Below, one piece after another: positions 574 through 42,781 of a stretch of 45,078 nucleotides of DNA; position 1 is the first letter of the stretch; the number at the start of each line of letters is the position of its first letter. A program made the position numbers and the translations under genes. The DNA lies in contig JAURZI010000090.1 in assembly GCA_030653435.1 (NCBI GenBank), positions 1 through 45,078 on the forward strand, in the 5' to 3' direction. Source of the DNA: Methylovulum sp. (GTDB lineage Bacteria; Pseudomonadota; Gammaproteobacteria; Methylococcales; Methylomonadaceae). The notes beneath the pieces are model-generated. The model was not told where the DNA came from. It worked only from the letters and a program-made list of their open reading frames with translations, and did no database searches.

Positions 574-778
574 TGTGCTCCTGGCGCTATCCCTTGTAGA
601 TAAATATATTCGTACCGATTATAAAGGTGTGATTAGCGTTAGTCATCTTCCTGAGGCGTATCGGGTGCGATTCAAACTGAGGCGGAAATCAACCCACCCA
701 CTGATTTGATTAGAGAGGATCTCTTAGGTGGCTTCGACATGACAACTCAATTTCGGGAAGTTATTGTTGACCAAAGTC

Positions 779-1141
779 TTAAAGGAAGAACAGCGGGTTT
801 TTAGTGACGGCGACAATGCCGATATATGCAAAACAGAGCATTGCGCCGGAGAACGCCAGCCATCGGGTAGTCCCTCGATTACGCATCACTACGATGCTTA
901 ATCCGATATAAACCACTAAAGCGCACAGTTTGGCTATAATCCAGCCGTGTTCGGTTGACAGCCATTGGCCTTGAAAAACCAGTGCAATGCCACTAAGCAA
1001 TAGGGCGCTATCAATAATATGGGGCGCAATTTTGAATAATTTCTGCTTGAGCAGGGCAGGTTGAGTTTCTGAAATAATAACCCTGCCGACGAAGCTTACG
1101 ACTGACATTAAAATAAAAGTAAGGTGAAGAATTTTGATCAT
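779..1141 (-). CDS. SirB2 family membrane protein
   Basis: This 120-residue protein is almost entirely hydrophobic, with four predicted membrane helices (roughly residues 3–20, 40–58, 68–85 and 95–113). The opening IKILHLTFILMSVVSFVGRV and the motif KIAPHIIDSALLLSGIAL match the SirB (invasion gene expression up-regulator SirB2) family, normally about 120–130 residues. The biochemical role of the family is not established; it is an inner-membrane protein often found as a single gene. The start at 1141 follows an AGGGAAC ribosome site. It stands alone on the – strand, and the next gene on the right runs away from it. Confidence 0.85.
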   Translation of the reverse strand: MIKILHLTFILMSVVSFVGRVIISETQPALLKQKLFKIAPHIIDSALLLSGIALVFQGQWLSTEHGWIIAKLCALVVYIGLSIVVMRNRGTTRWLAFSGAMLCFAYIGIVAVTKNPLFFL

Positions 1142-1675
1142 GCTGTTCCCTGTTGTAGTGGCTCTGCAAAGTTTAGTGGTCGCCGTCTGACTGCGGCAAC
1201 AGTACGTGGTTCAATTTTACCCTGTTTATACGATAGGCTATGCGGTAGGTAGTGCAAATTATCCGGAAGACATTTGTCCGGTGGATAACCTACGCAGGCT
1301 GGTAAAATATAAGCGCTTCATTTTGAATGTCAAAAGTAAAAGCAACCGTGTAGTGCTGACGATAGCTGCCTTGACAGTGGTGGCTAGGGCACTATACTTT
1401 TTAGCCAAGCAGCGTTTGTTGGCGGCAGGCAGCACTGGGCCTTAGATGGCTAGTTGTAAAGAATATACTCTTTCCCCCCATTATTGTATAAAAATAGCAG
1501 CTTGCTTGATCGGGTCGTTTTTTCTGCTTGGGCAAGAACTATGCGAAGGCTGTCTTCAGTGCTCTTGCCATCACTGAAAATGCACAAAAATACTGTGCAT
1601 GGGGGGACTTAATTTTGGCTATCGCCATAGTGCCATTTGTTTTGCTTGATGCTAACCCAGCCTGAGGAAACACCT
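1142..1675. other. Non-coding stretch upstream of the DUF1800 gene
   Basis: No supported gene lies here. A 79-codon open frame at 1206–1445 on the + strand has only a GTG start, no convincing ribosome site and no recognisable domain, so I do not call it. The stretch contains a short inverted repeat near 1261–1284 (CCGGA, 9-base spacer, TCCGG) and the palindrome described separately at 1580–1600. A promoter for the following two-gene unit presumably lies in its right half. Confidence 0.5.
1580..1600. promoter_or_regulatory. Palindrome upstream of the DUF1800–DUF1501 unit
   Basis: ATGCACA and TGTGCAT form perfect 7-base arms around a 7-base AT-rich spacer (aaaatac), about 75 bases before the start codon of the DUF1800 gene. 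The size and symmetry suit a dimeric DNA-binding protein. The loop is too AT-rich and the arms too short for a terminator, and no T-tract follows. The function is inferred from form and position only. Confidence 0.4.
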
Positions 1676-8254: not shown

Positions 8255-8411
8255 ACGACTATAGTTAGCACTCGTCATTTAAATCTTTTTCCGGGCCAAT
8301 AACCGTCGTGTTGTGCAACGTCGCGCAAATAGTATTTTTACCGCAACAGTCCGGGCTTGTCCTAACCGCGCAACTAGTTTTTGGCATCTATAACAATAAC
8401 GAGCTGAAACG

Positions 8412-9995
8412 ATGAAAGAACTCCTCACAATATGGCAACATGATACCTGGCCGTCCGTCAAATCCACACAGCCTTTGGAAACCGGGGTTGGTGTCATTGA
8501 TGAAAGTGCTTTTAACACGATTGAAGTGGATAAGGTTTTTGAAGCCGTCAATTATGCATCAACAACCGTCGGTCAAGCTGTGTTATACCGCTCTTTGGCC
8601 CAGCCACTGGATAATCGTGATGACATCAGGGCAAAGCAGGAGGCGCTCGAAGAATTACGTCAGAATACGGCATTAAAAGACACCGTGGAAAACATCGTGC
8701 AAAACGCGGCGAGCCAGGAAAACAGTTTTTATTTATTATTGTTCGGCGATTTTTTAGGCTCGTTCGGTTCAGCGCGGGAAGGCCATGAAATTGAAGGTTA
8801 CGGTTATCCGCAATATAAAAAAGGCATAGGCTTTATGCGCGGGCTGGTCGAGGGCATTCAAGCCGCCGAAAGCCCTAAAAGCCCTTACTTAGCGAGTTTG
8901 TTTGGACGCATCACGGCTTTTGCCGATACGCGCCCTTATTCGTTAATGGAAGGCCCTGTCTATATCACTGAAAACGGTATCCAGTGCAAACAGGAAAGAA
9001 GCAGCTCATGGTCGCCCGCCGTCATTTTTGTGCCGCGCATCATCAAGCCGTTACTGTTAGCCTTGACATTCGCGGTGCTGTGGTTAGCCAACCACTTTGC
9101 CCCGGTGGACATCAGGCAGTCCATCCCTGACCAAGCCATTTTCCTTACCCCGCTGTTGCTGCTGTATTTTCCGATAGTGGGCGGGTTTGACCGCGACCAC
9201 TGCATCATCCCGTTACGCAACCTGTTTAAAAGCTCGCCCGCAGTTGCCCAAACCCTGGACGCGCTGGGGCAGCTGGACGAGCTGCTGTCATTTTTAAAAT
9301 TCGCCGACAACTTCGGACATGAAACCGTGTTACCGACGCTGATAAACAGCCCGCATCACCGGATAAACCTGGTTGACGCGAAAAATCCCGTATTGAGCAA
9401 AATCTACAACGATTATGTCGGCAATGACCTGGTACTGGAAGACGACAAACTGGTTCTGGTCACCGGGCCCAATAGCGGCGGCAAAACCGCATTTTGTAAA
9501 ACCATCACACAAATTCAACTGCTGGCGCAGACGGGTTGTTTTGTCCCCGCCAAATCGGCAACACTAACCGTTGCCGACAGGATTTTTTATCAGGTTCCTG
9601 AAATCAGTCATTTGAATGATGGCGAAGGCCGTTTTGGCACCGAGCTAAAACGCACCAAAGACATTTTCCTGGCCACGACGGCCAAGAGTCTGGTCGTACT
9701 GGATGAATTATCGGAAGGCACCACTTTTGAAGAGAAAATGGAATCGTCCTCGAATGTGCTCAATGGTTTTTACCGCAAAGGCAACAGTACTATCCTGATT
9801 ACGCATAACCATCAATTGGTCGATTTGTTCGTCAATCAAGGCATAGGTTTGCCGAAACAGGTTGAGTTTGCAAACGAAGCGCCAACGTATAAAGTCATCC
9901 CCGGCATTTCCCGCATCAGCCATGCTGACCGTGTTGCGAAAAAAATCGGGTTTTCCAAAGAAGACATAGACCATTATCTGGCGGATGCACCATGA
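8412..9995 (+). CDS. Membrane-inserted MutS-like ATPase
   Basis: This 527-residue protein ends in a MutS-type ATPase domain: Walker [11 protein letters not shown] at about residues 352–361, Walker [16 protein letters not shown] at about 428–442, and the switch motif ILITHNHQ at about 460. The N-terminal half has helical MutS core-like sequence but no mismatch-recognition domain. Two hydrophobic segments (about 208–226 and 243–259) lie between the core and the ATPase, which suggests membrane attachment. Related MutS-domain proteins of unknown role exist in other bacteria; this is not MutS or MutS2, which are longer and soluble. Its last codons overlap the start of purT (ATGA, 9992–9995), implying translational coupling. 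A DNA-repair role is not demonstrated by the sequence. Confidence 0.8.
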
Positions 9996-11191
9996 AAATC
10001 GGCACGGCATTAACAAACAACGCGACCAAGGCCTTATTGCTGGGTAGCGGCGAACTCGGTAAAGAGATGGCTATTGCGCTGCAACGCTATGGCGTCGAAG
10101 TGATTGCCGTAGACCGTTACGCCAACGCACCCGCGCATCAGGTCGCGCATCGTTGGCATGCGGTGGACATGACCGATGCCGGGTCAATAAAAGCCATAAT
10201 AGCCCTGGAGCAACCGGATTTCATTATCCCAGAGCTGGAAGCGATAGCTACCGGCGCGTTGTTCGATATTGAAGAACAAGGCGGTTGTACCGTGGTGCCT
10301 AACGCCACGGCCATACAACTGACCATGAACCGCGAAGGCATCAGGGTACTGGCCGCACAGCAACTTAAAATACCGACCTCGGCTTACGCCTTTGCCGGAT
10401 CGTTTGCCGAGCTGGAAGCTGCGGTCAACAACGGCATCGGTTTCCCCTGTTTCGTCAAGCCGACCATGTCCTCATCAGGCAAGGGTCAGTCGCTGGTAAA
10501 CGACGCCGGACAACTGAAAGATGCCTGGGATTATGCCAGATCTGCGGGGCGTGTCGATACCGGCAAAGTCATCGTTGAAGCTAAAATTGATTTCGATTTT
10601 GAAATAACGTTATTGACCGTGCGGGCTTTAAATGCCGCGGGCGAAATCCAAACTTATTTTTGCGCGCCCATCGGTCATCGGCAGGAACACGGCGATTACC
10701 GCGAAAGCTGGCAACCGCAAGCGATGACACAGGCCGCGCTTGCAAAAGCCCAGGATATAGCCCTGAAAATAACCGACTGCATAGGCGGTTTAGGGTTGTT
10801 CGGCGTTGAACTGTTCGTCAAAAATGATGACGTCTGGTTTAGCGAGGTCAGTCCCAGGCCGCACGACACCGGGATGGTCACGTTGGCCACGCAAAAACAA
10901 AACGAGTTTGAGCTGCATGTCCGCGCGCTATTGGGACTGCCGGTCAATACCCGATTGCATTGCTGTGGCGCTAGCGCCGTTATTTTAGGTGGCATAGACG
11001 GGCGCGGCGTGTCTTACCATGGCTTGGAACAGGCGCTTGCCGTGCCTGACAGCGAAGTCCGCCTATTCGGTAAACCTGAAGCTTTTGTCAACCGACGTAT
11101 GGGGGTTGCCTTGGCCACTGCGGCAACCACCGATGAGGCCAGGATTAAAGCGGCTATCACCGCCAATATGATAGTGATTAAACCCGAATGA
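9992..11191 (+). CDS. purT: Formate-dependent phosphoribosylglycinamide formyltransferase PurT
   Basis: This 399-residue ATP-grasp enzyme makes formyl-GAR from GAR, formate and ATP in purine synthesis. The N-terminus has the Rossmann-like [20 protein letters not shown]; the ATP-grasp part shows [15 protein letters not shown] and [14 protein letters not shown], followed by [13 protein letters not shown], where the metal ligands lie. The C-terminal motif [18 protein letters not shown] is typical of PurT. Using formate directly would suit an organism that makes formate from one-carbon compounds, though PurT is also common elsewhere. The start codon overlaps the stop of the MutS-like gene by four bases, and the lytic transglycosylase follows 12 bases downstream. 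Confidence 0.95.
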
Positions 11192-15028: not shown

Positions 15029-18000
15029 CTAGCCGCGCAACAATTGCACAAAGGCCGCTGCCGGCAAGGGTTTGCTTTTCAAATAACCCTGGTATAAATC
15101 GCAGCCTTTACCTTGTAAAAAAGCCAGCTGCGGCAGGGTTTCGACACCTTCGGCGAGGACTTTAAAACCCAGAATATGCCCCATCGCGATAATGCTTGCA
15201 GCAATTTCCATATCATCATTATCATGGGGAATGTCGTCGATAAAGCTTTTGTCGATTTTTAACACATCCAACGGAAAGCGTTTTAAATAAGCCAATGACG
15301 AGTAACCGGTGCCAAAGTCATCAATCGCCAGACGCACCCCCTGATTCCGCAGCTTGTTAAGAATATCCACAGCCTCTTCTTCCCGTTCCATCAGCCCGCT
15401 CTCGGTCAGTTCCAGCTCCAAATAACGGGCCGGGAATCCTGTTTCCGCCAACACCTCCGACACCAGTTCGCCGACATCGCTCTGGATAAACTGATGCGGC
15501 GACACATTGACCGCCAAAATCAGTGGCGGCAAGCCTTCATCCAGCCATTGCTTGCCCTGGCGGCAGGTTTCGCGCAATACCCAGGCACCTACCGGGATAA
15601 TCAAACCGGTGTCTTCGGCCAGCGGAATAAACCGTGCAGGCGGTATCAAGCCTTCTGTAGGGTCTTGCCAACGCACCAGCGCTTCGGCACCGACGATGCA
15701 ACCAGAGACGATATCAACCTGGGGTTGGTAATAAACGCATAATTCGTTTTGGGCGATGGCCTTACGCAACCGGGCTTCCAGCTCTATACGGGTGCGTGCG
15801 GCAATGGTCAGTTCATCGGAAAAATAAGCATAGCGCCCTCGCCCCTGGGCTTTAGCCAGATACAGCGCGGTGTCTGCCTGTTGCAGCAACATTTCCGGCG
15901 TGTCTGCGTGCTGTGGGTACAGGCTGATGCCGACGCTGACGCCTATCCGCACATCGCCCCACTGGCTAAGCTGATAGGATTCGCTTAAATCGGCAATGAT
16001 GGACTTGGCTAAGCGGCCGGCATCTTCCGGCGCGCTAATATCTTCCAGCAACACGGTAAATTCATCACCACCCAGACGGGCGACGGTATCGGCTTTACGC
16101 AATCTGCCCATCAGCCGTTCGGCAACCTGTTGCAGCAATTCATCACCCGCCAAATGCCCAAAACTATCATTGATATTTTTAAAATGATCCAGATCAAGCA
16201 TCATCAAAGCCATTTGCTTGCCTTCGCGCAGAGCTAGGTCGATAGCGTGTTTCAGCCTATAAAATAGTAGCAAACGGTTAGGCAAACGGGTTAGTGAATC
16301 GTGATGGGCCAGATACTCAAGCTGGCTTTCCGTTTCCTTAAGCTTGGACATATCGGTGAATACGGCAACATAATGCGATACATGACCCAGCTCATCGGTC
16401 ACCGCGCTGATACTCAATAACTCAGGAAAAATATCGCCGTTTTTGCGCCGGTTCCAGATCTCGCCCTGCCAGTGGCCTTGCGTCAGGATGGATTCCCACA
16501 TCTGCTGGTAAAAACTATCATCGTGCAAGCCCGAACCCAACAGTGATGGCTGCATACCCCGCACGTCGGACTCGCTATAACCGGTAATAGCGGTAAAGGC
16601 GCGGTTGACCGTAAGGATATTGCGGTCGGCATCGGTAATCATAAAGCCTTCGCCGCTTTGCTCGAATACCTTGCTGGTAAGTTTTAGCTGCGTTTCGGCC
16701 TGTTTGCGCTCGGTGATGTCAAAGACGATGGCAATATGGTAATCAGGACTCGCACCGCTTACCCACATCGGCGACACCGTCAAGCTCACCCATTTAGTGC
16801 TGCCGTCTTTACAAAAATAGCGTTTTTCCAGCGTAAATTCGCTAATTTTTCCGGCATTAAGCCGCTCTTTATAAAAACGATCCAGCGCCACATCATCAGG
16901 ATGGGTCAGCTCAATAAAGTCCGCGCCTTGCATCTCTTTACGCGTATAGCCCAAAATGTCGCAATATTTTTGATTGATACGGACACATCGGTTGCTTGCG
17001 GTTTCAACCTGGGCAACACCGACAGCCGCCTGCTCGAAGACGACGCGGAAACGCGATTCACTCTCCCGCAACGCGGCTTCAGCTAATTTACGCTCAGTAA
17101 TATCGTCAAAAACAGCGACAAAAAATCCGGGTTCGGGACAGTAAACAGAGATAATCAGCCACTGGTTGTTAGGTTTGAAATCAAACTCAAAAACCTCAGG
17201 GACACCGGTGGCGGCAACCCGTCCATAGATCTCGAACAACTCAGGGCTGAGTTCTTTAAGTCCCGGAATAACAACACTAACCGGTTTACCGACAACATCA
17301 TCCAAACCCGTTATCCGCGTGAAAGCGTTATTGACATCCAGATAGACAAAGTCCACCGGTTGACCGCCTGCATCGTACTGCATCTGACAATAGGCATAAC
17401 CGCTAATCATATTCTCAAACAGTGAGCGGTAACGCTGCTCGCTCGCTCCCAATGCAATCTCGGCCTGCTTGCGTACCGTAATGTCGCGGGTGACACCCAA
17501 CAGCAATTCAATCTTGCCGTCCGCTTCACTACGCAGCGGCGCATAATGAGTTTCAAGCCAGCGCGGCCTGCCCTTTAAACTGATGATCTCAAATTCCAAA
17601 ACGCCACTCTGACCTTGCAGCGTGCGTTGATGCAAATCGACAAACGGTTTCCGGTATGCCGGCAGTAAAAAGTTAACCAAACCATGCTGCTGCACGGCTT
17701 CCAGGCTATCGGCCTCCAGCATCGCAAGCCCCGCCCGGTTCATATCCAAAAGATGACCCGCTGCATCAACAATTTTTACACATTCCGGTTCGTTTTCGAT
17801 GATGGTCCGTAAGCGCTGTTCGCTCTCCTGGAAGGACAATTCCGCCAGTTTGCGGGACGTAATATTTTCATGCACGACCACTGCGCCACGCCGAGCACCC
17901 TGTAACGGCGAGACATGCATCAGAAACCAGCGGCGCTCAGTCGGCGAATGGCATGGGTATTCCATGCTGAACTCCGGCGATGCGCCTGCCAATACCGCCA

Positions 18001-20026
18001 TGATGCCTTGCCGTACCTCCGCAACTTCTTTATCCAAAACATAATTGGGCGCAGTTACGCACACATCAAGATAATTGACGCCATGTGAATTAAGGGCGCT
18101 ATCCGGCGCGCCATTCTGCTCGGCAAACTGGTGCCATGCCTTGTTGACGGCAACAATGAAGCCTGCTGAATCCAGCACCGCGACATGTTGCAGCAACGAA
18201 TCCAGCACGCTGACGTTAAACGCCTCACTTTCGCATAGTGCGGCCTGGATTTGCTGGCGGGCGGCTTCCTGGACAAAATTATTCAACGCATAATCAATGT
18301 CCATGGTCATTTCCAGCAACAGATTACGCTCAGCTTCATCGAAGGCGTTGACTACATCGGCATATAACGTGAACACGCCGATGACCATGCCGTTGCGGTG
18401 TAGCGGCAACGCGGCCGATGCCGCCCAACCATAGCGCCTGCCTTGTTCATGCCACGGCCCGGTACGGGGGTCATGGATAAAATCCTGGCACCAAACCGGC
18501 TCGTTCCCGCGCAGGGCAATACCGGTCGGGCCTTGCCCGAAGGGGTTGTCGACATCCACCGAGATACGCAGTTCATGTAAATACTCAACACCGGCGCCAA
18601 AGCTGGCAACAGGGTGGATCCAATGGCTGTCGGGGTCTATCATGCCGATCCAAGCCATTTTCATGCCGCCAAACTGCACGGCATCGCGGCATATTTGCGG
18701 GAATAACTCCGCTTCAGTGGCGCAACGGACAATGGCCTGGTTGCATTGGCTCAATGCCGCATAGAGGTTAGTCATGCGTTGGATTTTCGCCTCAACGCCC
18801 TTGCGTTCGGTAATATCGGTGATAAAACCGTGCCAGATCATCGAACCATCCGCCTCGCGCTCCGGCAATGAATTCCCTGACAACCAGCGCACCGTGCCAT
18901 CATCGAACCTCACCCGATAGTCATAATGCCAAGGCGTCAAATTCTGTGCAGATGCCTCGATGGAAGCCACAATGCCGTCATAATCATCCGGGTGCAATGT
19001 TGCAAACACTGGGGAGGCATCGTCGCGAACAAGCGCCGGATCAACCCGGTAGATATCGCGCATCGCCTCGCTGGCGAACGGAAAACAGAAACTCCCGTCA
19101 GGGCGTAAACGGAATTGGTAAACAACGCCGGGCAAGCGGCTGATGATCTTCTGGAACAATGCCTGGGTTTCCTGGCGTTCTTCTTCCAGCCGTTTGCGTT
19201 CGGTAATGTCATGCACTACGGCAATGCAATAATCAGGTTGGGCACCCGGTTCCCACATGGGAGATAGCGTCAGTTCCACCCAGACCGGCTGCCCGTTTTT
19301 GTGGATATAGCGTTTTTCGAGGCTGAATTCGTGCAGCTCACCCGCTTTGAGACGTGCTATATGGCTTAAATCGCTGGCCAGATCGGCAGGTTCAGTGATG
19401 TCGGTGCAGGTCATCGCCATCATTTCCTCGAGGCTATAACCGGTTATCGCGCAATATTTGCGGTTAACACGCACGAACTCGCCGGTAACCGTGTTGATTT
19501 GGGCGACGCCGACCGCAGCTTGGTTAAATAACGCGCGAAAACGCGCCTCGCTTTCCGCCACCGCCGCCGTACAGCGCGCTTCCAGTGCATATCGATAAAT
19601 ACGTTGCTGCTGGTACCATAGCTGCAAAAAGACTACGCATAACACGACGCTGAAAAAAAAAGCAAAAACGCTGACCCAGAGCGCCCGTTCGTACACTGGG
19701 GAAATCTGCACTAAGGCAAGGCAGGCCAGCGGGACGATCAGCGCCAACGCAGCAATCAAGGCGAGCGGCCTTACCGCCTTAGGCGGGTCAAGGTTGCCGC
19801 ACAGGGACATCTCAACATCAAATGACGCACGCCAGCCTTTAAGTCCCAAATAAAGCAAATAACTGGTGACCGCAACAAAAACCAGCCCCTTGCCTATCTC
19901 GATACGGTTTTGGATGACGGGGTCGGCGACCGTAAACGTCAATAAATACCCGGATGCTATAATCCATAACACGGCAAAACCGGCATAAAGCAAGGAAATT
20001 TTGGCAGGCGTCAATCGTTTAGGCAT
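15029..20026 (-). CDS. Multi-PAS/GAF GGDEF–EAL c-di-GMP turnover protein
   Basis: The protein has about 1665 residues. It begins with four hydrophobic segments in the first 140 residues, then about seven PAS/PAC modules with one GAF domain after the second (about residues 430–585), and ends with GGDEF and EAL domains. The GGDEF active site is intact (ARLGGDEFTVLLED) after DSLTRLPNRLLL and LDLDHFKNINDSFGH; the EAL domain keeps GAEALVRWQDP, DDFGTGYSSLAYLKRFPL and AEGVE. Both diguanylate cyclase and phosphodiesterase activity are therefore possible, with the sensors probably setting the balance. The first PAS and the sixth are clearly similar (both contain QAAVGVAQ, EKRY and SPMW…DITERK), showing internal duplication. 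I prefer the ATG at 20026 to the GTG six codons upstream. The gene stands alone; signal and target are unknown. Confidence 0.9.
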   Translation of the reverse strand: MPKRLTPAKISLLYAGFAVLWIIASGYLLTFTVADPVIQNRIEIGKGLVFVAVTSYLLYLGLKGWRASFDVEMSLCGNLDPPKAVRPLALIAALALIVPLACLALVQISPVYERALWVSVFAFFFSVVLCVVFLQLWYQQQRIYRYALEARCTAAVAESEARFRALFNQAAVGVAQINTVTGEFVRVNRKYCAITGYSLEEMMAMTCTDITEPADLASDLSHIARLKAGELHEFSLEKRYIHKNGQPVWVELTLSPMWEPGAQPDYCIAVVHDITERKRLEEERQETQALFQKIISRLPGVVYQFRLRPDGSFCFPFASEAMRDIYRVDPALVRDDASPVFATLHPDDYDGIVASIEASAQNLTPWHYDYRVRFDDGTVRWLSGNSLPEREADGSMIWHGFITDITERKGVEAKIQRMTNLYAALSQCNQAIVRCATEAELFPQICRDAVQFGGMKMAWIGMIDPDSHWIHPVASFGAGVEYLHELRISVDVDNPFGQGPTGIALRGNEPVWCQDFIHDPRTGPWHEQGRRYGWAASAALPLHRNGMVIGVFTLYADVVNAFDEAERNLLLEMTMDIDYALNNFVQEAARQQIQAALCESEAFNVSVLDSLLQHVAVLDSAGFIVAVNKAWHQFAEQNGAPDSALNSHGVNYLDVCVTAPNYVLDKEVAEVRQGIMAVLAGASPEFSMEYPCHSPTERRWFLMHVSPLQGARRGAVVVHENITSRKLAELSFQESEQRLRTIIENEPECVKIVDAAGHLLDMNRAGLAMLEADSLEAVQQHGLVNFLLPAYRKPFVDLHQRTLQGQSGVLEFEIISLKGRPRWLETHYAPLRSEADGKIELLLGVTRDITVRKQAEIALGASEQRYRSLFENMISGYAYCQMQYDAGGQPVDFVYLDVNNAFTRITGLDDVVGKPVSVVIPGLKELSPELFEIYGRVAATGVPEVFEFDFKPNNQWLIISVYCPEPGFFVAVFDDITERKLAEAALRESESRFRVVFEQAAVGVAQVETASNRCVRINQKYCDILGYTRKEMQGADFIELTHPDDVALDRFYKERLNAGKISEFTLEKRYFCKDGSTKWVSLTVSPMWVSGASPDYHIAIVFDITERKQAETQLKLTSKVFEQSGEGFMITDADRNILTVNRAFTAITGYSESDVRGMQPSLLGSGLHDDSFYQQMWESILTQGHWQGEIWNRRKNGDIFPELLSISAVTDELGHVSHYVAVFTDMSKLKETESQLEYLAHHDSLTRLPNRLLLFYRLKHAIDLALREGKQMALMMLDLDHFKNINDSFGHLAGDELLQQVAERLMGRLRKADTVARLGGDEFTVLLEDISAPEDAGRLAKSIIADLSESYQLSQWGDVRIGVSVGISLYPQHADTPEMLLQQADTALYLAKAQGRGRYAYFSDELTIAARTRIELEARLRKAIAQNELCVYYQPQVDIVSGCIVGAEALVRWQDPTEGLIPPARFIPLAEDTGLIIPVGAWVLRETCRQGKQWLDEGLPPLILAVNVSPHQFIQSDVGELVSEVLAETGFPARYLELELTESGLMEREEEAVDILNKLRNQGVRLAIDDFGTGYSSLAYLKRFPLDVLKIDKSFIDDIPHDNDDMEIAASIIAMGHILGFKVLAEGVETLPQLAFLQGKGCDLYQGYLKSKPLPAAAFVQLLRG

Positions 20027-20112
20027 GTTTGTCTTTTTCAGCACTTTTTACTGTTTTCCATCGGAGTGCACCGCCGCCGGGCATAACAGCGCTCTTGCCG
20101 ACCATTACGTGT

Positions 20113-33219: not shown

Positions 33220-36024
33220 CTATCCCGTATTCCGCATCCCCGCCGCAATCGCGTTAATCGTCCGCAATAAGGGTTTACGCCACGGATTCTCGCCACTGTG
33301 ATCCACTTGCTCTTCACGCACTAATTTCAGCAAATTGGCTTGAATGTAATTCAACGGCCCCAAATAATTATTGCGATGATGTAAAGACACGGCTAATTCT
33401 GGATTATCCGCCAGCAAATGGTCAGCTTCCGCAACTTCCAAAACCCATTCTACGCTACGGTGATGTTCCGCTGCGATCATCGCATGGATACCTTTGCCGA
33501 CTTGTTCATCCAAACATAAGCTTGCATATTCGCGGGCAATGTTCATGTCGGTTTTGCTCAAAGCCATTTGCGCGTTGCTCAGCAAATTGCGGAAGAACGG
33601 CCATGTCTGGTACATCTCACGTAGCGCCGCCAAGCGATCCGGTTTTCCCGCGCACCAAGTTTCCAAGCTCGCGCCAATGCCATACCAGGCCGGAAACGTC
33701 TGCCGCGACTGCGCCCAAGAGAAAACCCAGGCAATCGCGCGTACCGAATTTTTCGAACGGTCTTGTTTTTTTCTGTGCGAGGGACGTGAGCCGATGTTAA
33801 GACCACCTATTTCCGATAAGGGCGTGGCTTCGTAAAAATAATCCAAAAAGCCTGGCGTGTGTTCGGTCAATTGTCTAAAACCGCGTTCACCGATTTGCGC
33901 CAACTCGCTCATGATGGCGAGATTTTCGGGGCGGTCTTGCTCCACGGTGTGCACCAAGCTCATACTGGCTTTCATCAGGCCAGTGATGCCCATAGTCAGT
34001 TCGTACATCGCTGTTTCCATATTGTTGTAGCGGTAGAACAGGGTTTCGCCTTGTTCGGTGAATTTGATTTGTCCGCGCACGGTAGCCGGTGGTTGCGCCA
34101 AAATCGCTTGATGGGTAGGGCCGCCGCCCCGTCCGATGGTGCCGCCGCGACCGTGGAACAAACGGCAAGGGATGTCTTGCTCATCGGCAATCGCCATGAC
34201 TTGCTGCTGCGCCCTGTACAAGCCCCATGCCGAAGCCAGGATGCCGCCGTCTTTGCAGGAATCGGAATAGCCGAGCATGATTTCCTGCCGTTGGCCTGAG
34301 GCTTGCAGCAAAGCGCGGTAGGCAGGTTGGGCAAACAAGGTACGCAAAACACTGTCGATATGGTTTAAGTCGTTGATGGTTTCAAACAACGGGCTGACGC
34401 CGATATGACAAAACCATTGTCCGCCGATGCGCCCCGCCAAGCCATGTTGGGCGGAGAGCAGCAATACTTCAATGATGTGGCTGGCGGCATGAGTCATCGA
34501 GATAACGTATTTGCTGAAGCAATCGCCGCCGATTTCGCGGCGCATTTGCGCCATGACGCGGAACAATTCCAAGGTTTCGGTGGCGGCATCCGATAACTTC
34601 GTTGCATCGTAAACCAAACCGCCGGGCGTGGCGATGGCTTCACCCAGGATTTTTAGGCGTTGCTCTTCATCCATTGCCAAGTAATCCATGCCCAACGCGG
34701 CGGTGAAAATTTCAGCAACGGTCTCGCTGTGGCGGGTAGATTCCTGGCGCACGTCCATTTGCATCAAATGGAAACCAAAAGTACCTACCAGGCGCTGTAA
34801 ATCCTGCAATTCCAGGTCTGCCACCGCGAGGTCGCCATGACCAAGCAGCGATTGTTGGATAATCTTTAAATCAGCATAAAATTCGCCTGCGCTGCGGTAA
34901 GCGTAATTGACCAACTGGGCATCGTAGCCGTCAATGCACTGCTCGATTTGCTGCAAACGTTGTTCCAGGCGAAACCGCATCAGTGAGAGTTTTTGCCGAT
35001 AGGGTTCTTGCAAAAAAGGACGCTCCAGTGTTTTGGCATGTTCGCCGATTAATGCACGGTCACTATCCAAACTAGTGAAGAACTCAGCACTGGGTTTGCA
35101 CAAACCATTTGAAAATGCCAGTTGTTCGCGTAGGGAATCAATGCGTTGCAGATATTCTTGAACGATGGTGCGGGAATTCAAGCGCAGGGCATGGGCGGTG
35201 GTTTCCGGTTTAACATTAGGGTTGCCGTCCCGGTCGCCGCCTATCCACGTTCCGTAGTTCAAAAAATGGGGGATGTTCAGTTGTTGTGCGGCTTCCGCAC
35301 CATAAACATCCTGCACGGCTCGCAAGAAGTTGCGGTACACCCTTGCGGTGGCTTCAAACAGTGACAGTGGGAAGTAAAACAAGCCCGCTTCAATTTCATC
35401 AACCACGTTCATGCTACGGGTTCGCACTTCGTCGGTTTTCCACAGCAATTGGATTTGGCTATGCAGACGTTCTAGGGCTTGTTGGCGGTAATAGCCTTTG
35501 AGGCGCTGGTCATCGATTTGCTCATAACTGACAAAAATTTTCCGCAATGCACTACGCACTGTTCGCCGTTTGGCTTCGGTTGGATGCGCGGTCATCACTG
35601 GCAGATAATGCAGGTTGTTCAATAGGGTCTGCAAATCTTCAATAGCCAGACCTTGTTGCTGGAATTGCTGCAAAGTGTGATGGAAAGAGCCGGGCCAAAA
35701 ATGCTTGTTGTTTTCGATGTCCTTACGGCGATGGCGTAAGTTGGTGGCCTCTTCGGCAATATTCAACAAGCTGAAATATAAGCTAAAGGCGCGTATCACT
35801 TCGGTGAGGGTGTCGGCCGGCAAACCTTTGAGGGTGTCCGCCAATTGTTTACGTTTGCTGGGGGTGTCATCGCGATGCAAAGCGGAAAATTGTTTTTGCA
35901 ATTGCTCAACCGTTGCCATGATTTTCGGGTTGGCTTGGCTTTTCAGCACCTGCGCCAGCATCGTTTTGAGTGATTTGATGCTGGCTTGCAGAGCTTTGTC
36001 ATCGTAAGTGATATCAGTGGTCAT
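33220..36024 (-). CDS. ppc: Phosphoenolpyruvate carboxylase
   Basis: This 934-residue enzyme fixes bicarbonate on PEP to give oxaloacetate. Catalytic motifs are intact: VMTAHPTEAKRRTV with His147, GYSDSCKDGG, HGRGGTIGRGGGPTH, QGETLFYRYNN, and the RAIAWVFSWAQSR loop (usually RAIPWVFSWTQ). The C-terminus ends RNTG, as in most family members. I chose the ATG at 36024, which follows GGAGAGG, over an in-frame ATG 16 codons upstream. PEP carboxylase is common in methylotrophs but not diagnostic. No neighbour is functionally linked. Confidence 0.95.
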   Translation of the reverse strand: MTTDITYDDKALQASIKSLKTMLAQVLKSQANPKIMATVEQLQKQFSALHRDDTPSKRKQLADTLKGLPADTLTEVIRAFSLYFSLLNIAEEATNLRHRRKDIENNKHFWPGSFHHTLQQFQQQGLAIEDLQTLLNNLHYLPVMTAHPTEAKRRTVRSALRKIFVSYEQIDDQRLKGYYRQQALERLHSQIQLLWKTDEVRTRSMNVVDEIEAGLFYFPLSLFEATARVYRNFLRAVQDVYGAEAAQQLNIPHFLNYGTWIGGDRDGNPNVKPETTAHALRLNSRTIVQEYLQRIDSLREQLAFSNGLCKPSAEFFTSLDSDRALIGEHAKTLERPFLQEPYRQKLSLMRFRLEQRLQQIEQCIDGYDAQLVNYAYRSAGEFYADLKIIQQSLLGHGDLAVADLELQDLQRLVGTFGFHLMQMDVRQESTRHSETVAEIFTAALGMDYLAMDEEQRLKILGEAIATPGGLVYDATKLSDAATETLELFRVMAQMRREIGGDCFSKYVISMTHAASHIIEVLLLSAQHGLAGRIGGQWFCHIGVSPLFETINDLNHIDSVLRTLFAQPAYRALLQASGQRQEIMLGYSDSCKDGGILASAWGLYRAQQQVMAIADEQDIPCRLFHGRGGTIGRGGGPTHQAILAQPPATVRGQIKFTEQGETLFYRYNNMETAMYELTMGITGLMKASMSLVHTVEQDRPENLAIMSELAQIGERGFRQLTEHTPGFLDYFYEATPLSEIGGLNIGSRPSHRKKQDRSKNSVRAIAWVFSWAQSRQTFPAWYGIGASLETWCAGKPDRLAALREMYQTWPFFRNLLSNAQMALSKTDMNIAREYASLCLDEQVGKGIHAMIAAEHHRSVEWVLEVAEADHLLADNPELAVSLHHRNNYLGPLNYIQANLLKLVREEQVDHSGENPWRKPLLRTINAIAAGMRNTG

Positions 36025-36072
36025 TTTGCCTCTCCGGAAGCTAAAGTAGTTTGGGTTATAACTGAAAAACAA

Positions 36073-36487: not shown

Positions 36488-36925
36488 TCAAGTCAGCACG
36501 ATAACCAGCGTGCCCATTAACAACCCCAGTTGAATCAGCAACAACCTGATTTTTCCAGGCCAACTCGAAGCAGTCCATAGCTGTATGGTATGGTTTTTCA
36601 AGTTGAAATAACGGGTGGAAATATCACTTTTAATTGCTTGTATCATGTCAGGCAGTCGCCGCCCAAAGTAATAAGCACTCAGCAAGCCCAAACACCAGCT
36701 CGAATAAAAGACAATCAACTGGCACTCGAATTTGCTCAAGTGCAAACTGTGATGCAATATTTCTTCCACGACAAACGCAAAGCATTCATAGATGACATGC
36801 AATAATTGCAACACTTGGTGAAAAAACTCTAGCGGCGCGTGAATGAAATAAATCAGCAATAACATGACCACAAGAACTTTGCCGATAGTTATCTGCGTTT
36901 CCACTGTAGGCCATTGTGATTTCAT
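36488..36925 (-). CDS. Small multi-pass membrane protein of the export cluster
   Basis: I do not recognise this 145-residue protein. It has hydrophobic helices near residues 14–30, 35–55, 70–88 and 125–144, with charged loops (SKFECQLI, GRRLPDMIQAIKSD). Its ATG follows AGGAG and lies 23 bases after the TolC stop on the same strand, so it is most likely the last gene of the export-like operon. It could be an accessory inner-membrane subunit, but that is by context only. Confidence 0.65.
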   Translation of the reverse strand: MKSQWPTVETQITIGKVLVVMLLLIYFIHAPLEFFHQVLQLLHVIYECFAFVVEEILHHSLHLSKFECQLIVFYSSWCLGLLSAYYFGRRLPDMIQAIKSDISTRYFNLKNHTIQLWTASSWPGKIRLLLIQLGLLMGTLVIVLT

Positions 36926-36948: not shown

Positions 36949-38469
36949 CTAATGGGTTGTTAAGCCCAGAGCCGCTTGGTAATCGGCATGGGCTTTTAAT
37001 AAAGTGCTGGCGGCATCGGCGGCCATTAAAGCCGCGTCGCCATGGGCGATTTCGCGCAGATTCACAAATAGCATCGTGCTTTCGCCCAGATCAAAACGGT
37101 CACGCTCGCCTTGTTCCAATTGCTGCGCCGCTTGCTGTTGCTGGACGGTCAACCCTACCCGCTGGCGAGCAGCGGATAATGCAGACAATACGTCTTGCAC
37201 ATCGGCGGCAATGCGGTCTTCCAACATTTGCCGTTCCCATTTCAGCCGTTGTAGATTCGCTGCGGTTATTTGGGTGCGACCTGTAGCGACGCGGCGTTGC
37301 AATGGAATGTCGAGATTTAAGCCGACATATAATTCTTCGCGATTGAGCTTGTCCTTGTTCGAACCTAAGTCTTGTGCGCCCATCACAGACAGATCCACGC
37401 CGGGCGCGCGTTGATTACGTTGCAAGTCCAGCTCGATTTGGGTTTGCTGGCGTTGTATGCTCAAGCGTTGCAATTCCGGGCGGTGGTTTTGTGCTGTTTG
37501 CAAGGTTTGCTGAAAACTCAGCGTGGTTTGCGGTCCCTGTACAGGAAAACCGGACGGGAGTTGAGTAGCACCCGGCAAACGCGGCTCACCGTCCACATCC
37601 CGCCAATACAGCGATAACTGGATTGCGCTTTGCTCCAATAAACGTTGTGCAGCGATTGTGCGCTCTCGGCGTTCGATGATTGCCCGCTGATTGTCGAGCG
37701 CTTCAAATTCCGGTATATCGCCAGCAGCAACCCGCTCGTGGATTCCGGCATTACGCTGTTCGGCGATTTGCAACAAGCGCTTAGCGATTTGCAGGCGTTG
37801 TCCCGCTAATACCCAATCCCAGTAACGGTAGGTCGCCAAACGACGGACTTCCAGCAAGGCCTGATCGTAATCATGATTTGCGATCAGTTTTGCCAATTCA
37901 GCCTGTTGCAAACTGGCGCGACGACGGTCTATATCGCGGTTACGCCATAACGGGATGTTCACGCCGACGCGCATTTCACCGGCGTCTGCAGTAAGGTTTT
38001 TGCCTTCGTACACCGGATAATTGCCAACACCGCGCCGCCAACCGCCGAAAAACGTTGCGCCGCCGAATGCAGTAGGTTGTTCAAAGCCTACGTCGTTATT
38101 TTGGTTTTCGTATAATCCGGCTACGGAAAAGTTATTGCGGATTTTCAGTTGTGTATCGAAACCGCCTTCCGCTGCTTGCAACTCGCCTTCAGCAACGGCC
38201 TTGCGCTGTTCGGTTGCAAGTAGGGTAGGGAAGGCGTGCAGTGCGGAATTGATGACGTCATTCAACGCCAAGACTGGTTCTGCATGAGCGGTTGGAAAAA
38301 TCGTCAATGACACTATCAAAAATACCCGCACGGCCATGCTGCGACGTGAGAATTCATTCTGGAACACAGGCTCTTCATTGGCCGCATTAGCATTGATGTC
38401 CCAAGAGGCGCGCTGGAGCGGAGCAAGAATAAAATGTCCACAAGTTCTTGGAATGATGTGATTAGTCAC
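36949..38469 (-). CDS. TolC family outer-membrane efflux protein
   Basis: Up to 506 residues. After a signal peptide (MAVRVFLIVSLTIFPTAHA) come the two repeated OEP halves: long helical stretches with ALNDVINSALHAFPTLLATE, LNIPLWRNRDIDRRRASLQQ, VGLNLDIPLQRRVATGRTQI, and a C-terminal helix. It would form the outer-membrane tunnel of the export complex. The outermost start is a GTG at 38469 overlapping the adaptor stop (GTGA) with a good GGGGGAG site; an ATG at 38337 gives a conventional signal peptide at the N-terminus. The true start is unresolved. The adaptor and ABC genes lie directly upstream. Confidence 0.88.
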   Translation of the reverse strand: MTNHIIPRTCGHFILAPLQRASWDINANAANEEPVFQNEFSRRSMAVRVFLIVSLTIFPTAHAEPVLALNDVINSALHAFPTLLATEQRKAVAEGELQAAEGGFDTQLKIRNNFSVAGLYENQNNDVGFEQPTAFGGATFFGGWRRGVGNYPVYEGKNLTADAGEMRVGVNIPLWRNRDIDRRRASLQQAELAKLIANHDYDQALLEVRRLATYRYWDWVLAGQRLQIAKRLLQIAEQRNAGIHERVAAGDIPEFEALDNQRAIIERRERTIAAQRLLEQSAIQLSLYWRDVDGEPRLPGATQLPSGFPVQGPQTTLSFQQTLQTAQNHRPELQRLSIQRQQTQIELDLQRNQRAPGVDLSVMGAQDLGSNKDKLNREELYVGLNLDIPLQRRVATGRTQITAANLQRLKWERQMLEDRIAADVQDVLSALSAARQRVGLTVQQQQAAQQLEQGERDRFDLGESTMLFVNLREIAHGDAALMAADAASTLLKAHADYQAALGLTTH

Positions 38470-39812
38470 CCTTTTTCTCCCCCATCACTTTCTGATTTAA
38501 CATCGCTTTTACCCGCTTTCATCAACTCCGGCTCTGGCAACACCATGGGTGGAAAGCCGTTAAAAATTCGCCATAATTCATACCCCAGCGTGACTCGGCC
38601 TAACAAAACCCAACCGTTAACACGCACGCCCTGGCGAAGAAACCGGGCATCCGGCCAGGCAATATCATTTTTATCGGCGGTAACTAACACCCGGAAATGG
38701 CCTTTGCCATCGTCTGTCGCGTCAATCAACGCTATCCTGCCGCCGAACGACCCCGCCGAAAACTCCGGCCAGCCGCCGAACTGAATCGCCGGATAGCCTT
38801 CAAATTGCAAGCGCACAGGGCTGTCAGTCACGATCAACGGCAAATCGTTGCCGTCCACCCATAATTCCACAGCACGTTCGGCGGTATCTGGCACCAAAAT
38901 AACCAATGGCTGACCCGGCTTGACCATTTCTGCACCCGGATTTGCCAATAGGCGCAAAACCGAACCGTCTCGCGGCGCCGTCACGACCTGGGTTTGTTGT
39001 CTCGCCAGTCGGGTTTGTAATTTCAGCACTTCGCCACGCACGATGTTCTGATCTTCAATGGCCTTTTGTAAATCCGCTCGCGCTTTTTCAATCGAGGCCA
39101 ACGTATCGGCAGCGAGTTTTTCCCGATCGGCGTTAATGGCTTCGACTTCACTACCCGCTGCTGCCAATGAGGCTTTGCTGCGTTCTACTTCGGTGCTGCG
39201 CTGCGCTATTTCCAGCTGTGATAACTCTAGCGTTCGTTTCGACGCCAAACCCTTGCCTTGCAATTGCTGTTGCCGCACCAAATTTAAACCAGCAGTTTGC
39301 CGCGCGGCGGCGGCCGCTGTAACCGTTTGCTGGGCCGCGCTGCGGCGTTGTTTCGCCATCATAATGCGTGATTCGGCGGCAGTCAGGGCTTGCGGTCTGG
39401 CTTTTTCGACCATTTTTAATTGTTGCCGAAAAGTCTCCACGCGACTGTCGTTTGCGACTTGTTTAGCCAGGTAGCTTTGCAGTTCATTGTTGATGCGCTC
39501 CAAAAACAGAGGATCGTTATCGTTGATTTCCGCCAACACCTCGCCTCGTTTAACCTGGGACCCTTCCCTAACCCGCCAATGGGCAATACGGCCTTCGACC
39601 TGTGCACTGATGATTTGCTGCCGTTCGGCCGGTTTGTAAGCTACTACACGTCCGACACCGCGCACGTTTTGCTGCCAAGGGGTGAAACCCAGCAATACCA
39701 GCATCACGGCAAACATCAGCACCAGGGAACGTGCGATGCGGTGCGCCAATGGCGCGGTCGCAGCGGCATCCAGGTTTTTTAGCGGCGGTATGTCGTTGTG
39801 TATTGGGTTCAT
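38466..39812 (-). CDS. HlyD family periplasmic adaptor
   Basis: This 448-residue protein is anchored by one N-terminal helix (residues 28–44), then a lipoyl-like half (IISAQVEGRIAHWRVREGSQV), a long coiled coil (about 100–290) and a second lipoyl/β-barrel part (APRDGSVLRLLANPGAEMVK). Such adaptors bridge the inner-membrane ABC exporter and TolC. It overlaps the TolC start by four bases. The gap to the upstream ABC gene is 217 bases and contains a repeat, so the adaptor may have its own promoter. Confidence 0.9.
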   Translation of the reverse strand: MNPIHNDIPPLKNLDAAATAPLAHRIARSLVLMFAVMLVLLGFTPWQQNVRGVGRVVAYKPAERQQIISAQVEGRIAHWRVREGSQVKRGEVLAEINDNDPLFLERINNELQSYLAKQVANDSRVETFRQQLKMVEKARPQALTAAESRIMMAKQRRSAAQQTVTAAAAARQTAGLNLVRQQQLQGKGLASKRTLELSQLEIAQRSTEVERSKASLAAAGSEVEAINADREKLAADTLASIEKARADLQKAIEDQNIVRGEVLKLQTRLARQQTQVVTAPRDGSVLRLLANPGAEMVKPGQPLVILVPDTAERAVELWVDGNDLPLIVTDSPVRLQFEGYPAIQFGGWPEFSAGSFGGRIALIDATDDGKGHFRVLVTADKNDIAWPDARFLRQGVRVNGWVLLGRVTLGYELWRIFNGFPPMVLPEPELMKAGKSDVKSESDGGEKG

Positions 39813-40029: not shown

Positions 40030-41676
40030 CTACTTTTCTTCCAGTAACACCCCATCCACAATTTGCACATGCCGCGAACATCGGTTGATAACTTGAGCAT
40101 TCTGACTGCTCACCATCAACGTCCAAGTCGAGCCATCAGCAAACAAACTATCCAAAACCGGTACCAAAAAGCGGCTGTCCAACCTGTCCAATACGCCGTC
40201 AAGCAACAGCAACAGCGGCTGTATCAACAACGCCCGTGCCAAGGTCAAGCGCAGGCATTGCTCAGGCGACAGCGGCGCACCGTTGACCGCCAACCGGGTT
40301 TCCAAACCATCCGGCAAGTTGAGGATAGTTTGCAGTAATCCCACTTTGTTCAGCACCTGTTGCAAATCCGTTATATTTAAGTCGCGACCCAACGCCAGAT
40401 TGTCGATTACCGAAGCCGTGATGATTTCCGCATCGCGTACTAAAGCCACTGTCTCACGCAAGCAACGCAAATTGACATCGCGGATATCCTGCCCATTCAG
40501 GCAGACGTAACCGGCGCTGGGCGCGCGCAAGCCAAACAGCACATCAAGCAAACTGCCGTGTTCCACACCTGCACTAATCACTAAACGTTCGCCCGACGAC
40601 ACATGCAGGTTTATGCACCGCAGTACATCCAATTGCGGACTGTCAGGTAAGGCAGCACCGACCACATCAACTTGGTACCCTTGTGCGCTAGGACATGGTT
40701 CGGCACCGTGCGGATTTTCCTGGGGCAAATCCAGGAGATGTCCGATTTTGTCGAGACTGGTCAGCAGTTCGTAGTAATTATCCAGCGTCTTACCTAAACG
40801 GGTCAGGCCGTAAATCATCGCACTGACCACCAGTTCAGCGGCGATCAATTGCCCCAGGCTGAGCTGATGTTCGATCACCATCCAGCCGCCCATGCCCAGC
40901 AACAAGGTGTTAGCCAAGGTATGCAGCACTAATGCGCCAGTGTTTTGCCGAGCCAGCACACGAAAATGTTGATAGCTCGCTTCTAGGTAAGCATCGGCGA
41001 TACGCTCTGTTTTCGCAGTCAAAAATGCACCGCCGCTGACTGATTTGCCCAATAACGCATTCGTGGCAATGTTTTCCAGCCAATCCAACGCCGCGTATTT
41101 GGCTTTGGATTGCGCTATCGCGGAGCTTAATCCGTTCTTACCCATCACAAATAGAATAATGGCCAGCATCGCGATCAAGAATAAATCAAATGCGAGCAAT
41201 AAAGGGTGATAAAACGCCAGCAATACCATACCAATGACTGTCTGCAGCACATAGCCCAAGGTTTCCAGCAGCAATACCGAAGCGGTTTTTTGCAGCGTCA
41301 CCACATCCAAAAAACGGTTCGCCAATTCCGGCAGATAGAGGTTATCACGGCTGGCAAGCATCGCTTGTTGCAATCGTCCTGCCGCTTCGCCGAAAAAGCG
41401 CACAAACAAGCGTCGTTGCAGCATATCGACCACATAAAACTGCAAGCCCGCCAGCATATTGCTGAAACCGACCAACACCAGCAACACTAATGTCAACACC
41501 AGCAACGGCTGGAACAACGCGCCAAAGGCGATAGTGTTAACCAACGCTTGCACGGCAACGGGCGTTGCCAGCGACATTAAGCCGATACCGACCCCATAGG
41601 CCAACAAAGTGTTGATATCCTGGTGTTCCAGCCGGATAAGCTGTTGTAAGCGTTCAAATGGAGTTTGATGATTCAT
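40030..41676 (-). CDS. ABC exporter-like protein with degenerate nucleotide-binding domain
   Basis: The 548-residue protein has an exporter-type membrane domain (helices between about residues 24 and 295, typical LLAYGVGIGLMSLATPVAVQ start) fused to a C-terminal ATPase-like domain (about 335–548). All key ATPase motifs are altered: Walker A reads SAGVEHGSLL (368–377) without the lysine, the Q-loop position is Asp415, the signature is LSPEQ (469–473) instead of LSGGQ, Walker B reads LLLLDGVLD with Gly494 in place of Glu, and the switch is SSQ (523–525) instead of a histidine. LTLARAL and the D-loop (RLDS) remain. The frame is intact and the HlyD and TolC genes follow, so it is unlikely to be junk. 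Its LysR neighbour is divergent. Confidence 0.85.
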   Translation of the reverse strand: MNHQTPFERLQQLIRLEHQDINTLLAYGVGIGLMSLATPVAVQALVNTIAFGALFQPLLVLTLVLLVLVGFSNMLAGLQFYVVDMLQRRLFVRFFGEAAGRLQQAMLASRDNLYLPELANRFLDVVTLQKTASVLLLETLGYVLQTVIGMVLLAFYHPLLLAFDLFLIAMLAIILFVMGKNGLSSAIAQSKAKYAALDWLENIATNALLGKSVSGGAFLTAKTERIADAYLEASYQHFRVLARQNTGALVLHTLANTLLLGMGGWMVIEHQLSLGQLIAAELVVSAMIYGLTRLGKTLDNYYELLTSLDKIGHLLDLPQENPHGAEPCPSAQGYQVDVVGAALPDSPQLDVLRCINLHVSSGERLVISAGVEHGSLLDVLFGLRAPSAGYVCLNGQDIRDVNLRCLRETVALVRDAEIITASVIDNLALGRDLNITDLQQVLNKVGLLQTILNLPDGLETRLAVNGAPLSPEQCLRLTLARALLIQPLLLLLDGVLDRLDSRFLVPVLDSLFADGSTWTLMVSSQNAQVINRCSRHVQIVDGVLLEEK

Positions 41677-41872: not shown

Positions 41873-42781
41873 ATGGAACGTCTCAATTACCAACACTTGT
41901 ATTATTTCTGGACGGTTGCCAAACAGGGTAGCGTCAGCAAGGCCTGTGCTTTGCTGCATCTGGCACAGCCGACCATCAGCGGGCAATTGGCGGTATTTGA
42001 ACAAAACATCGGCACGCAGTTGTTACGAAAAGAAGGCCGTAAGCTCGCGTTAACAGACACGGGGCGGACGGTATTCAATTACGCGGAAGAAATTTTCACG
42101 CTGGGTCGTGAACTAACGCAAACCCTGAAAGGCCAGGGCAACGAGCGCGGTTTGCGCCTGCATTTGGGCGTTGCTGACGCATTACCCAAATTGATTGCCT
42201 ATCGTTTGATTGCACCGTTGCTGAAGCAACCGGAACCTGTGCAAATCCATTGTTACGAAGACAAAACCGAACGTCTGTTGTCGGAAATTGCCTTGCACAC
42301 AATTGATTTGGTGTTGGCTGATATGCCTGCCACGCCTGCCAGCGGGGCCAAGGTGTTCAATCACTTGCTGGGCGAATCGGCCGTAGGTGTGTTTGCTGCA
42401 TCCAGTTTGGCGGGGCGTTATCGGCAGGATTTTCCTCGTTCGCTTAACGGCGCCCCTTTTTTGCTGCCAACCGCCAATACCGCGTTACGGCGGTCGCTGA
42501 ACCAATGGTTTGATACCAACGAACTTAGTCCGTCGATACAAGCGGAAGTGGAAGACAGCGCATTACTAAAAACCTTCGGCGCGGCGGGGGTAGGTTTGTT
42601 TTTCTCGCCGATGGCGGTAGCAAATGAGATCAATCGTCAATACGGTACGGTTTTGCTGGGGCAAGTAGATGGCGTTGTTGAACGGTTTTATGCGATTACC
42701 GCACAACGAAAGTTGAAGCATCCGTCGGTTGCAGCGATTTTGATGAACGCGCAGGAAGATTTATTTGAGTGCGTGTTTTAA
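41873..42781 (+). CDS. LysR-type regulator, NhaR-like
   Basis: This 302-residue protein has the NhaR-type N-terminus (LNYQHLYYFWTVAKQGSVSK) with the helix–turn–helix ALLHLAQPTISGQLAVFEQN, and an effector domain including VADALPKLIAYRLIAPLL and GVGLFFSPMAVANEI. E. coli NhaR activates the nhaA antiporter and other genes in response to sodium, but NhaR-like paralogues regulate many neighbours. No antiporter gene is nearby; it faces the export cluster, so that is its likely target. The start has an AAAGAG ribosome site. Confidence 0.85.
   Translation: MERLNYQHLYYFWTVAKQGSVSKACALLHLAQPTISGQLAVFEQNIGTQLLRKEGRKLALTDTGRTVFNYAEEIFTLGRELTQTLKGQGNERGLRLHLGVADALPKLIAYRLIAPLLKQPEPVQIHCYEDKTERLLSEIALHTIDLVLADMPATPASGAKVFNHLLGESAVGVFAASSLAGRYRQDFPRSLNGAPFLLPTANTALRRSLNQWFDTNELSPSIQAEVEDSALLKTFGAAGVGLFFSPMAVANEINRQYGTVLLGQVDGVVERFYAITAQRKLKHPSVAAILMNAQEDLFECVF

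Follow-up and report, generated by a model that had tools for sequence, protein, structure and literature searches.

The window analysed here, a 45,078-nucleotide stretch of Methylovulum sp. DNA (assembly GCA_030653435.1, contig JAURZI010000090.1), encodes on its minus strand an ATP-binding cassette (ABC) exporter-like protein of 548 aa with a degenerate nucleotide-binding domain (NBD; 40030..41676). The gene is open from an ATG start through 548 codons with zero internal stops; an earlier note on this DNA had likewise described the frame as intact. The protein has the architecture of an ABC exporter, a membrane domain (residues ~1-330) fused to an NBD of the ABC fold (~338-548). It scores 32.3 bits against Pfam ABC_tran, passing the cut-off of 25, and 25.2 bits against ABC_membrane, below the cut-off of 28. 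Downstream on the same strand are open reading frames (ORFs) for an HlyD-family periplasmic adaptor (38466..39812, 448 aa; Pfam HlyD_3 and Biotin_lipoyl_2), a TolC-type outer-membrane factor (36949..38469, 506 aa as called from GTG; Pfam OEP, 106.6 bits) and a small membrane-type protein (36488..36925, 145 aa; no Pfam or NCBIfam match). The HlyD and TolC genes are intact, as had been reported from first inspection, and the gene set of a type I secretion system (T1SS), i.e., ABC protein, HlyD adaptor and TolC duct together, is present.

All four catalytic features of an ABC exporter (Walker A, LSGGQ, catalytic Glu and switch His) are absent from the window protein. In an alignment with 23 intact ABC exporters, the P-loop is shorter by two residues and lacks Gly-Lys, the signature reads LSPEQ instead of LSGGQ, the Walker B Asp493 is kept with Gly494 in place of the catalytic Glu, and Gln525 replaces the switch His. 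The Q-loop Gln is also gone, and either Arg414 or Asp415 is its counterpart depending on the choice of alignment. The LD of the D-loop and the LTLARAL helix are retained. The earlier note had described the loss of every catalytic motif and the survival of these two fold-supporting parts. Its account holds for Walker A, the Q-loop Gln, the signature, the catalytic Glu, the switch His and the retained parts, but Walker B Asp493 and the D-loop remain and its placement of the Q-loop change at Asp415 is one of two options. An AlphaFold model built with 13 sequences is confident for the NBD (blocks with pLDDT of 72-91, except one of 59) and poor for the membrane domain (blocks of 40-81), and the top Foldseek matches of the model are ABC exporters, HlyB/D included. 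Overall, the window protein is very probably functional and conserved, with the fold of an ABC exporter but no hydrolysis of ATP.

The window protein belongs to a degenerate-NBD family found in Gamma- and Betaproteobacteria, Sphingomonadales and Bacteroidota. A scan of named contigs returned 16 loci, of which 15 encode relatives at 58-75% identity (from Methylococcaceae, Ca. Nitrotoga and other metagenome-assembled genomes); all 15 lack the P-loop Lys, LSGGQ and the catalytic Glu. Since 15 of 16 loci share these core losses, chance or an assembly error was rejected as the explanation. The sixteenth locus (L016) is an ordinary ABC protein and was moved to the intact set. A family match at E 1e-50 is present in 51 genomes out of 151 for the window's taxonomic family and in 14 out of 369 for its class. 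A phylum search with a 23-row alignment as query, scoring three candidates per genome, gave full-length family matches at 537-700 bits in 11 of 398 genomes; the next match drops to 178 bits and covers only part of an ABC protein. The genome that contains the window is itself among those sampled for the class and for the phylum. Plasmid records (22 records; 11 with another query) add Sphingomonadales, Persicobacter, Aureibacter and Riemerella, and seven plasmid loci were examined in detail. Four of the six annotated plasmid copies are labelled 'ABC transporter ATP-binding protein', which is misleading.

Members differ in length. Within the window's taxonomic family (151 genomes) the short form is present in 20 genomes, at 827 bits or more, and the other 31 matching genomes reach no more than 534 bits. 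In 26 of these 31 the frame is open over 697-725 aa, with an N-terminal extension in those aligned. No matching genome in this set has two family matches. In the long form (L045-L055, L108) the 5' part of the ABC-like gene encodes an N-terminal domain of ~160 aa. A C39-like domain was considered for the extension of this 700-aa type from a resemblance seen by eye, but searches of PDB and Pfam gave no support and yielded no other identity for the domain. In one genus with genomes of 2.0-2.1 Mb (L085, L086 and L087) the ABC-like protein is very short (517-527 aa, stop to stop) and very degenerate.

Motif states were compared across 59 non-redundant members, obtained from 76 family sequences by removing 18 near-identical or partial ones before tree construction and then adding L105. 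LSGGQ is absent from all 59, as is Gly-Gly at the signature. Asp-Glu at Walker B occurs once (L055), and the catalytic Glu column holds Glu in four members (L055, and L064, L113 and L114, where it follows a residue other than Asp). A proper P-loop, GK[S/T/N], is found in 13 members: all nine of the long methanotroph members compared, L105, L125, Persicobacter L108 and Riemerella L113. This count excludes L057 and L112, whose GK letters fall outside the loop. The other 46 have no P-loop Lys, and the window's own group lacks it without exception (23 members, counting the window). His occupies the switch column in 11 of the 59, nine of them in that same group; the loss of the switch His described in the earlier note therefore holds for the window but not for the family in general. 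Of the four catalytic features, L055 and L105 alone have two, and no member has three.

A tree built on the membrane-domain columns separates 58 members as a single clade from the 23 intact exporters (SH-aLRT 100). The tree was a quick one with long outgroup branches, flagged by the program, and its inner branching order is uncertain. In the simplest reading, the ancestor would already have been without the signature and the catalytic Glu, and several branches would have lost the P-loop afterwards. It had been proposed at the outset that loss conserved across species under purifying selection would support a distinct non-ATPase system, and that intact homologues in the same clusters, with relaxed selection in this copy only, would speak for its decay. 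Conserved loss is indeed seen across species and phyla. Intact homologues were sought in 369 genomes with a membrane-domain profile blind to the NBD (E 1e-12; at most five candidates scored per genome), and none was present among the 14 family members found. The search recovered the same 14 genomes as the class-wide search, all with a degenerate NBD. Its fifteenth match scored 83 bits, versus at least 355 for members, and belongs to an ordinary T1SS-type protein whose motifs are intact.

The NBD is still under selection. Among 16 close short-form pairs (membrane-domain dS <1.3; pairs not independent), omega is 0-0.18 for the membrane domain and 0.09-0.23 for the NBD in the 14 pairs where it is computable, so the dN/dS test suggested for this domain in the earlier note returned purifying selection. 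For the window and L001, membrane-domain omega is 0.09; NBD dS is saturated, so an omega for the window NBD is not computable. Compared pairwise (351 pairs), 27 short-form sequences average 69% identity over the membrane domain and 53% over the NBD, and the aligned NBDs of these 27 have one gapped column and 31 invariant positions. The NBD is the more conserved domain in only 15 of 1711 family pairs, whereas among intact T1SS-like proteins this is so in 119 of 136 pairs. By these measures the NBD is under purifying selection, yet diverging faster than the membrane domain, which is the opposite of intact exporters.

The membrane domain carries residues of the family's own. Given the low confidence of the 13-sequence model there, placing residues such as E281 by the model was rejected and positions were assigned by sequence only. 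Because motifs were the criterion for choosing the 23 intact exporters, the motif counts of that set follow from the choice, whereas its membrane residues do not. E281 (transmembrane segment 6, TM6), Q145 (TM3) and Y302 are each present in 59/59 family members and in 0/23 intact exporters (two gaps at Q145), which mostly have N, F and Q, respectively, at these columns. Also absent from all 23 are W199 (58/59), H157, K130 and Q244 (each 57/59) and K193 (56/59); Y156 occurs in all 59 members and in seven of the intact exporters. E281 and Q145 sit within hydrophobic stretches. Near-invariant membrane residues that intact exporters lack show that the translocation domain is under new constraints of its own, a pattern not to be expected from decay.

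At the level of sequence, these comparisons establish shared descent, loss of LSGGQ throughout and of the Walker B Asp-Glu in 58 of 59 members, a retained operon, purifying selection on the membrane domain as well as the NBD, and family-specific membrane residues. We propose that the operon encodes a tripartite export system of T1SS architecture, composed of an ABC-fold inner-membrane protein, an HlyD adaptor and a TolC-type duct, with an ABC protein from a distinct clade that gave up ATP hydrolysis. The conserved partners point to export, and the missing ATPase to another energy source. The protein would act as a homodimer in which the NBDs serve as a cytoplasmic dimerisation scaffold, and its outward cycle may be powered by proton (or sodium) motive force or by a substrate gradient. 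A conserved protonatable membrane-domain residue would be expected of a proton-coupled ABC-fold exporter; E281 fits this expectation and is the candidate coupling carboxylate. Such a hydrolysis-free tripartite exporter, with its predicted homodimer and ion or gradient drive, is the reading we favour over the alternatives, held with slightly more doubt than belief. More tentatively, the family may be a phylum-spanning natural class in which an ABC exporter turned into a secondary-active, ion-driven pump through ancestral loss of hydrolysis, later loss of nucleotide binding in branches, coupling via E281 and similar residues, and use of the NBD as a scaffold. The earlier note had favoured selection for a structural or regulatory role, for instance as a scaffold using another energy source. 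The conserved loss, the purifying selection and the retention of HlyD and mostly of TolC bear out a selected non-ATPase system; the family-specific membrane residues are circumstantial evidence for the other energy source, and the mechanism stays a proposal.

Precedent comes from LmrA and MsbA. In the available excerpts of PMC2704374 and PMC4979069, both proteins without their NBDs support proton-dependent transport, and E314 in TM6 of LmrA carries the delta-pH dependence of transport. Several points weigh on the other side. An equivalence of E281 with E314 was rejected on spacing: E314 lies 74 residues before K388 in LmrA (same excerpts), and in 22 of 23 intact exporters the Walker A Lys column comes 93-96 residues after the E281 column, which puts E281 ~20 residues nearer the periplasm. 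The precedent is thus one of principle. The same excerpts report that deletion of the Walker A Lys in full-length LmrA or MsbA inhibited transport and that MsbA without its NBD was less efficient than wild type. A dead NBD differs from an absent one, so the family must have escaped this block; if the block works through an NBD that responds to nucleotide, the window's group, having lost its P-loop, would be free of it. The conserved polar residues could instead serve HlyD contact or folding, and the 13 members with a proper P-loop may still bind ATP.

Alternatively, rather than pumping, the protein may serve HlyD-TolC as a gated conduit, a sensor or an assembly platform, with substrate or a neighbouring protein setting it in motion. 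We consider this unlikely, although it deserves serious weight. The same loss of hydrolysis speaks for it, and there are parallels in CFTR, which became a channel, and the sulphonylurea receptors, which became regulators (excerpts of PMC7756269). The gene neighbourhoods, counted over 49 contigs after excluding six duplicates (L088, L089, L091, L093, L094 and L096) and retaining L090, a near-identical strain of L008, bear on this alternative in both directions. Many methanotroph operons come with a small, conserved protein of membrane type: homologues of the 145-aa protein occur at 19 of 62 loci besides the window (where L088, L091, L093 and L094 each repeat a contig), all methanotroph-type, either behind TolC or ahead of the ABC-like gene by at most 0.9 kb. 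Methanotroph-type sequences made up the profile, so distant homologues may have escaped it. This protein is a probable fourth component in the methanotroph branch. A regulator also lies near several operons. In the window it is an NhaR-type LysR regulator (41873..42781, plus strand; NCBIfam NhaR 228.3 bits, cut-off 219), with 196 bp between it and the divergently oriented ABC-like gene. NhaR is a sodium-responsive regulator. An NhaR match lies within 8 kb in 11 of the 49 contigs, and is divergent and adjacent in the distant members L014 and L080. Transport is better suited by the strongest constraint falling in the translocation domain and by the retention of the export partners. HlyD adjoins the ABC-like gene in 49/49 contigs (48 by gene caller, L107 by direct search), and the outer-membrane duct is found as a TolC match within 3.5 kb in 44. 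Of the five contigs without one, L001 and L006 stop just behind HlyD, and L085-L087 have HlyD with no TolC match beside it. All seven plasmid loci have both HlyD and TolC.

A further alternative is an asymmetric heterodimer, whose ATPase site would come from an intact ABC half with its gene elsewhere in the genome. TAP (ABCB2/B3) is such a pair, and TmrAB is another example. A partner could exist in the window's genome, where seven further ABC loci have frames open for 572-975 aa. However, the NBD profile detected no second half-transporter beside the operon in the 49 contigs, which extends the earlier observation that no second ABC half is seen in the window. Other NBD-like ORFs occur in five contigs, all of 146-310 aa and none of half-transporter length. 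Those of L010 and L098 (247-248 aa, behind TolC) are presumably SufC, and that of L077 (222 aa) we take to be FtsE in an ftsYEX cluster; those of L078 (310 aa) and L090 (146 aa) are on the opposite strand, 7-8 kb away. In the one genome viewed whole, the single-contig G442, an ABC_membrane search at E 1e-5 returned only MsbA, CydD and CydC, each over an NCBIfam cut-off, although it missed the family member itself, so that another very divergent half could escape too. No ATPase-competent half was thus found encoded alongside. The suggested pairing with a second ATPase half loses ground on these results: a dedicated ATPase partner is unlikely, and the heterodimer as a whole looks improbable.

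ATP binding without hydrolysis could also act as a switch, with nucleotide-driven closure of the NBDs gating the pump and something else resetting it. The proper P-loops would permit this in the 13 members that have them. The P-loop Lys is absent throughout the window's group, and the second signature glycine is replaced by Glu in 27/27 aligned short-form sequences; both speak against a switch, which we judge a poor prospect in general and unlikely for the window's branch. Decay, i.e., an exporter on its way to loss, has next to no standing and is contradicted for the family: a gene split over two frames in L107 indicates that single copies may decay and the NBD evolves faster than the membrane domain, but recent local decay was rejected on the family-wide conservation of the defect and the low NBD omega, and open frames across phyla, the invariant NBD positions with a single gapped column and the confident NBD fold argue likewise.

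Several other features were noted around these operons. The ~140-aa membrane-type proteins have, by eye, a conserved His, acidic residues and a Q.IVFY-like stretch. In L107 (genome G043) the ABC-like gene, at 8295-10357 on the minus strand, is broken across two frames, and the HlyD and TolC ORFs are still open. The window gene at 33220..36072 (minus strand) is presumably a phosphoenolpyruvate carboxylase, named from reading of the sequence, and is a recurrent neighbour. A match to this enzyme lies within 8 kb in eight of 49 contigs, and also on the Bacteroidota plasmid L108 (Persicobacter); it recurs before or after the operon in L003, L006, L007, L008, L014, L068, L090, L107 and L108. In Sphingobium baderi (L109), HxsB and HxsC, the radical SAM maturases of the His-Xaa-Ser system, are annotated at 431-3060, a few kb upstream of the family operon. 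Elsewhere in the window, positions 15029-20044 (minus strand) encode a 1671-aa multi-PAS/GAF protein with GGDEF and EAL domains.

Judged by fold and operon, the proposed hydrolysis-free exporter is like a T1SS; judged by motif tests, its ABC protein is not a T1SS ATPase. Window residues 21-537 align on residues 155-674 of HlyB (E 8e-26), and by profile the protein aligns over the length of PCAT1 and ComA. The gene order ABC-HlyD-TolC is shared with T1SS, and outside the family the membrane-domain profile comes nearest to a T1SS-type protein whose motifs are intact and whose gene lies behind an ORF that we read as RTX. The HlyB / LssB / PCAT group has the ATPase motifs and the family does not, and E281, Q145, Y302 and H157 belong to the family only. 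The window protein falls far below the cut-offs of the curated T1SS ATPase models (TIGR01846, 112.7 versus 725.55 bits; TIGR03375, 106.9 versus 693.1 bits). A link to S-layer export in Methylomicrobium album was rejected because that T1SS is called PrtD family in the available excerpts of PMC13274458; a second T1SS cluster there was not compared with the family. We recognised no description of such a family in the open-access PMC literature, subscription papers and preprints being outside the scope.

Exporters with one degenerate site keep one competent site. TAP and others of this type (excerpts of PMC7756269) share with the family the loss of catalytic Glu, signature and switch residues, but the family has no second half in the 49 contigs and has also lost the P-loop Lys in most members. 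The membrane-domain constructs LmrA-MD and MsbA-MD (excerpts of PMC2704374 and PMC4979069) are likewise ABC exporter membrane domains without an ATPase. A carboxylate in TM6 of LmrA is important for its proton coupling, and the family has a TM6 Glu at another position. The constructs are laboratory truncations of ATP-driven pumps, whereas the family is natural and keeps a folded NBD. ABC exporters are defined by ATP hydrolysis, and transport by their membrane domains without it has so far been argued from truncated laboratory proteins. The natural loss of the hydrolysis motifs in Proteobacteria and Bacteroidota, with the export partners kept, makes that question directly testable.
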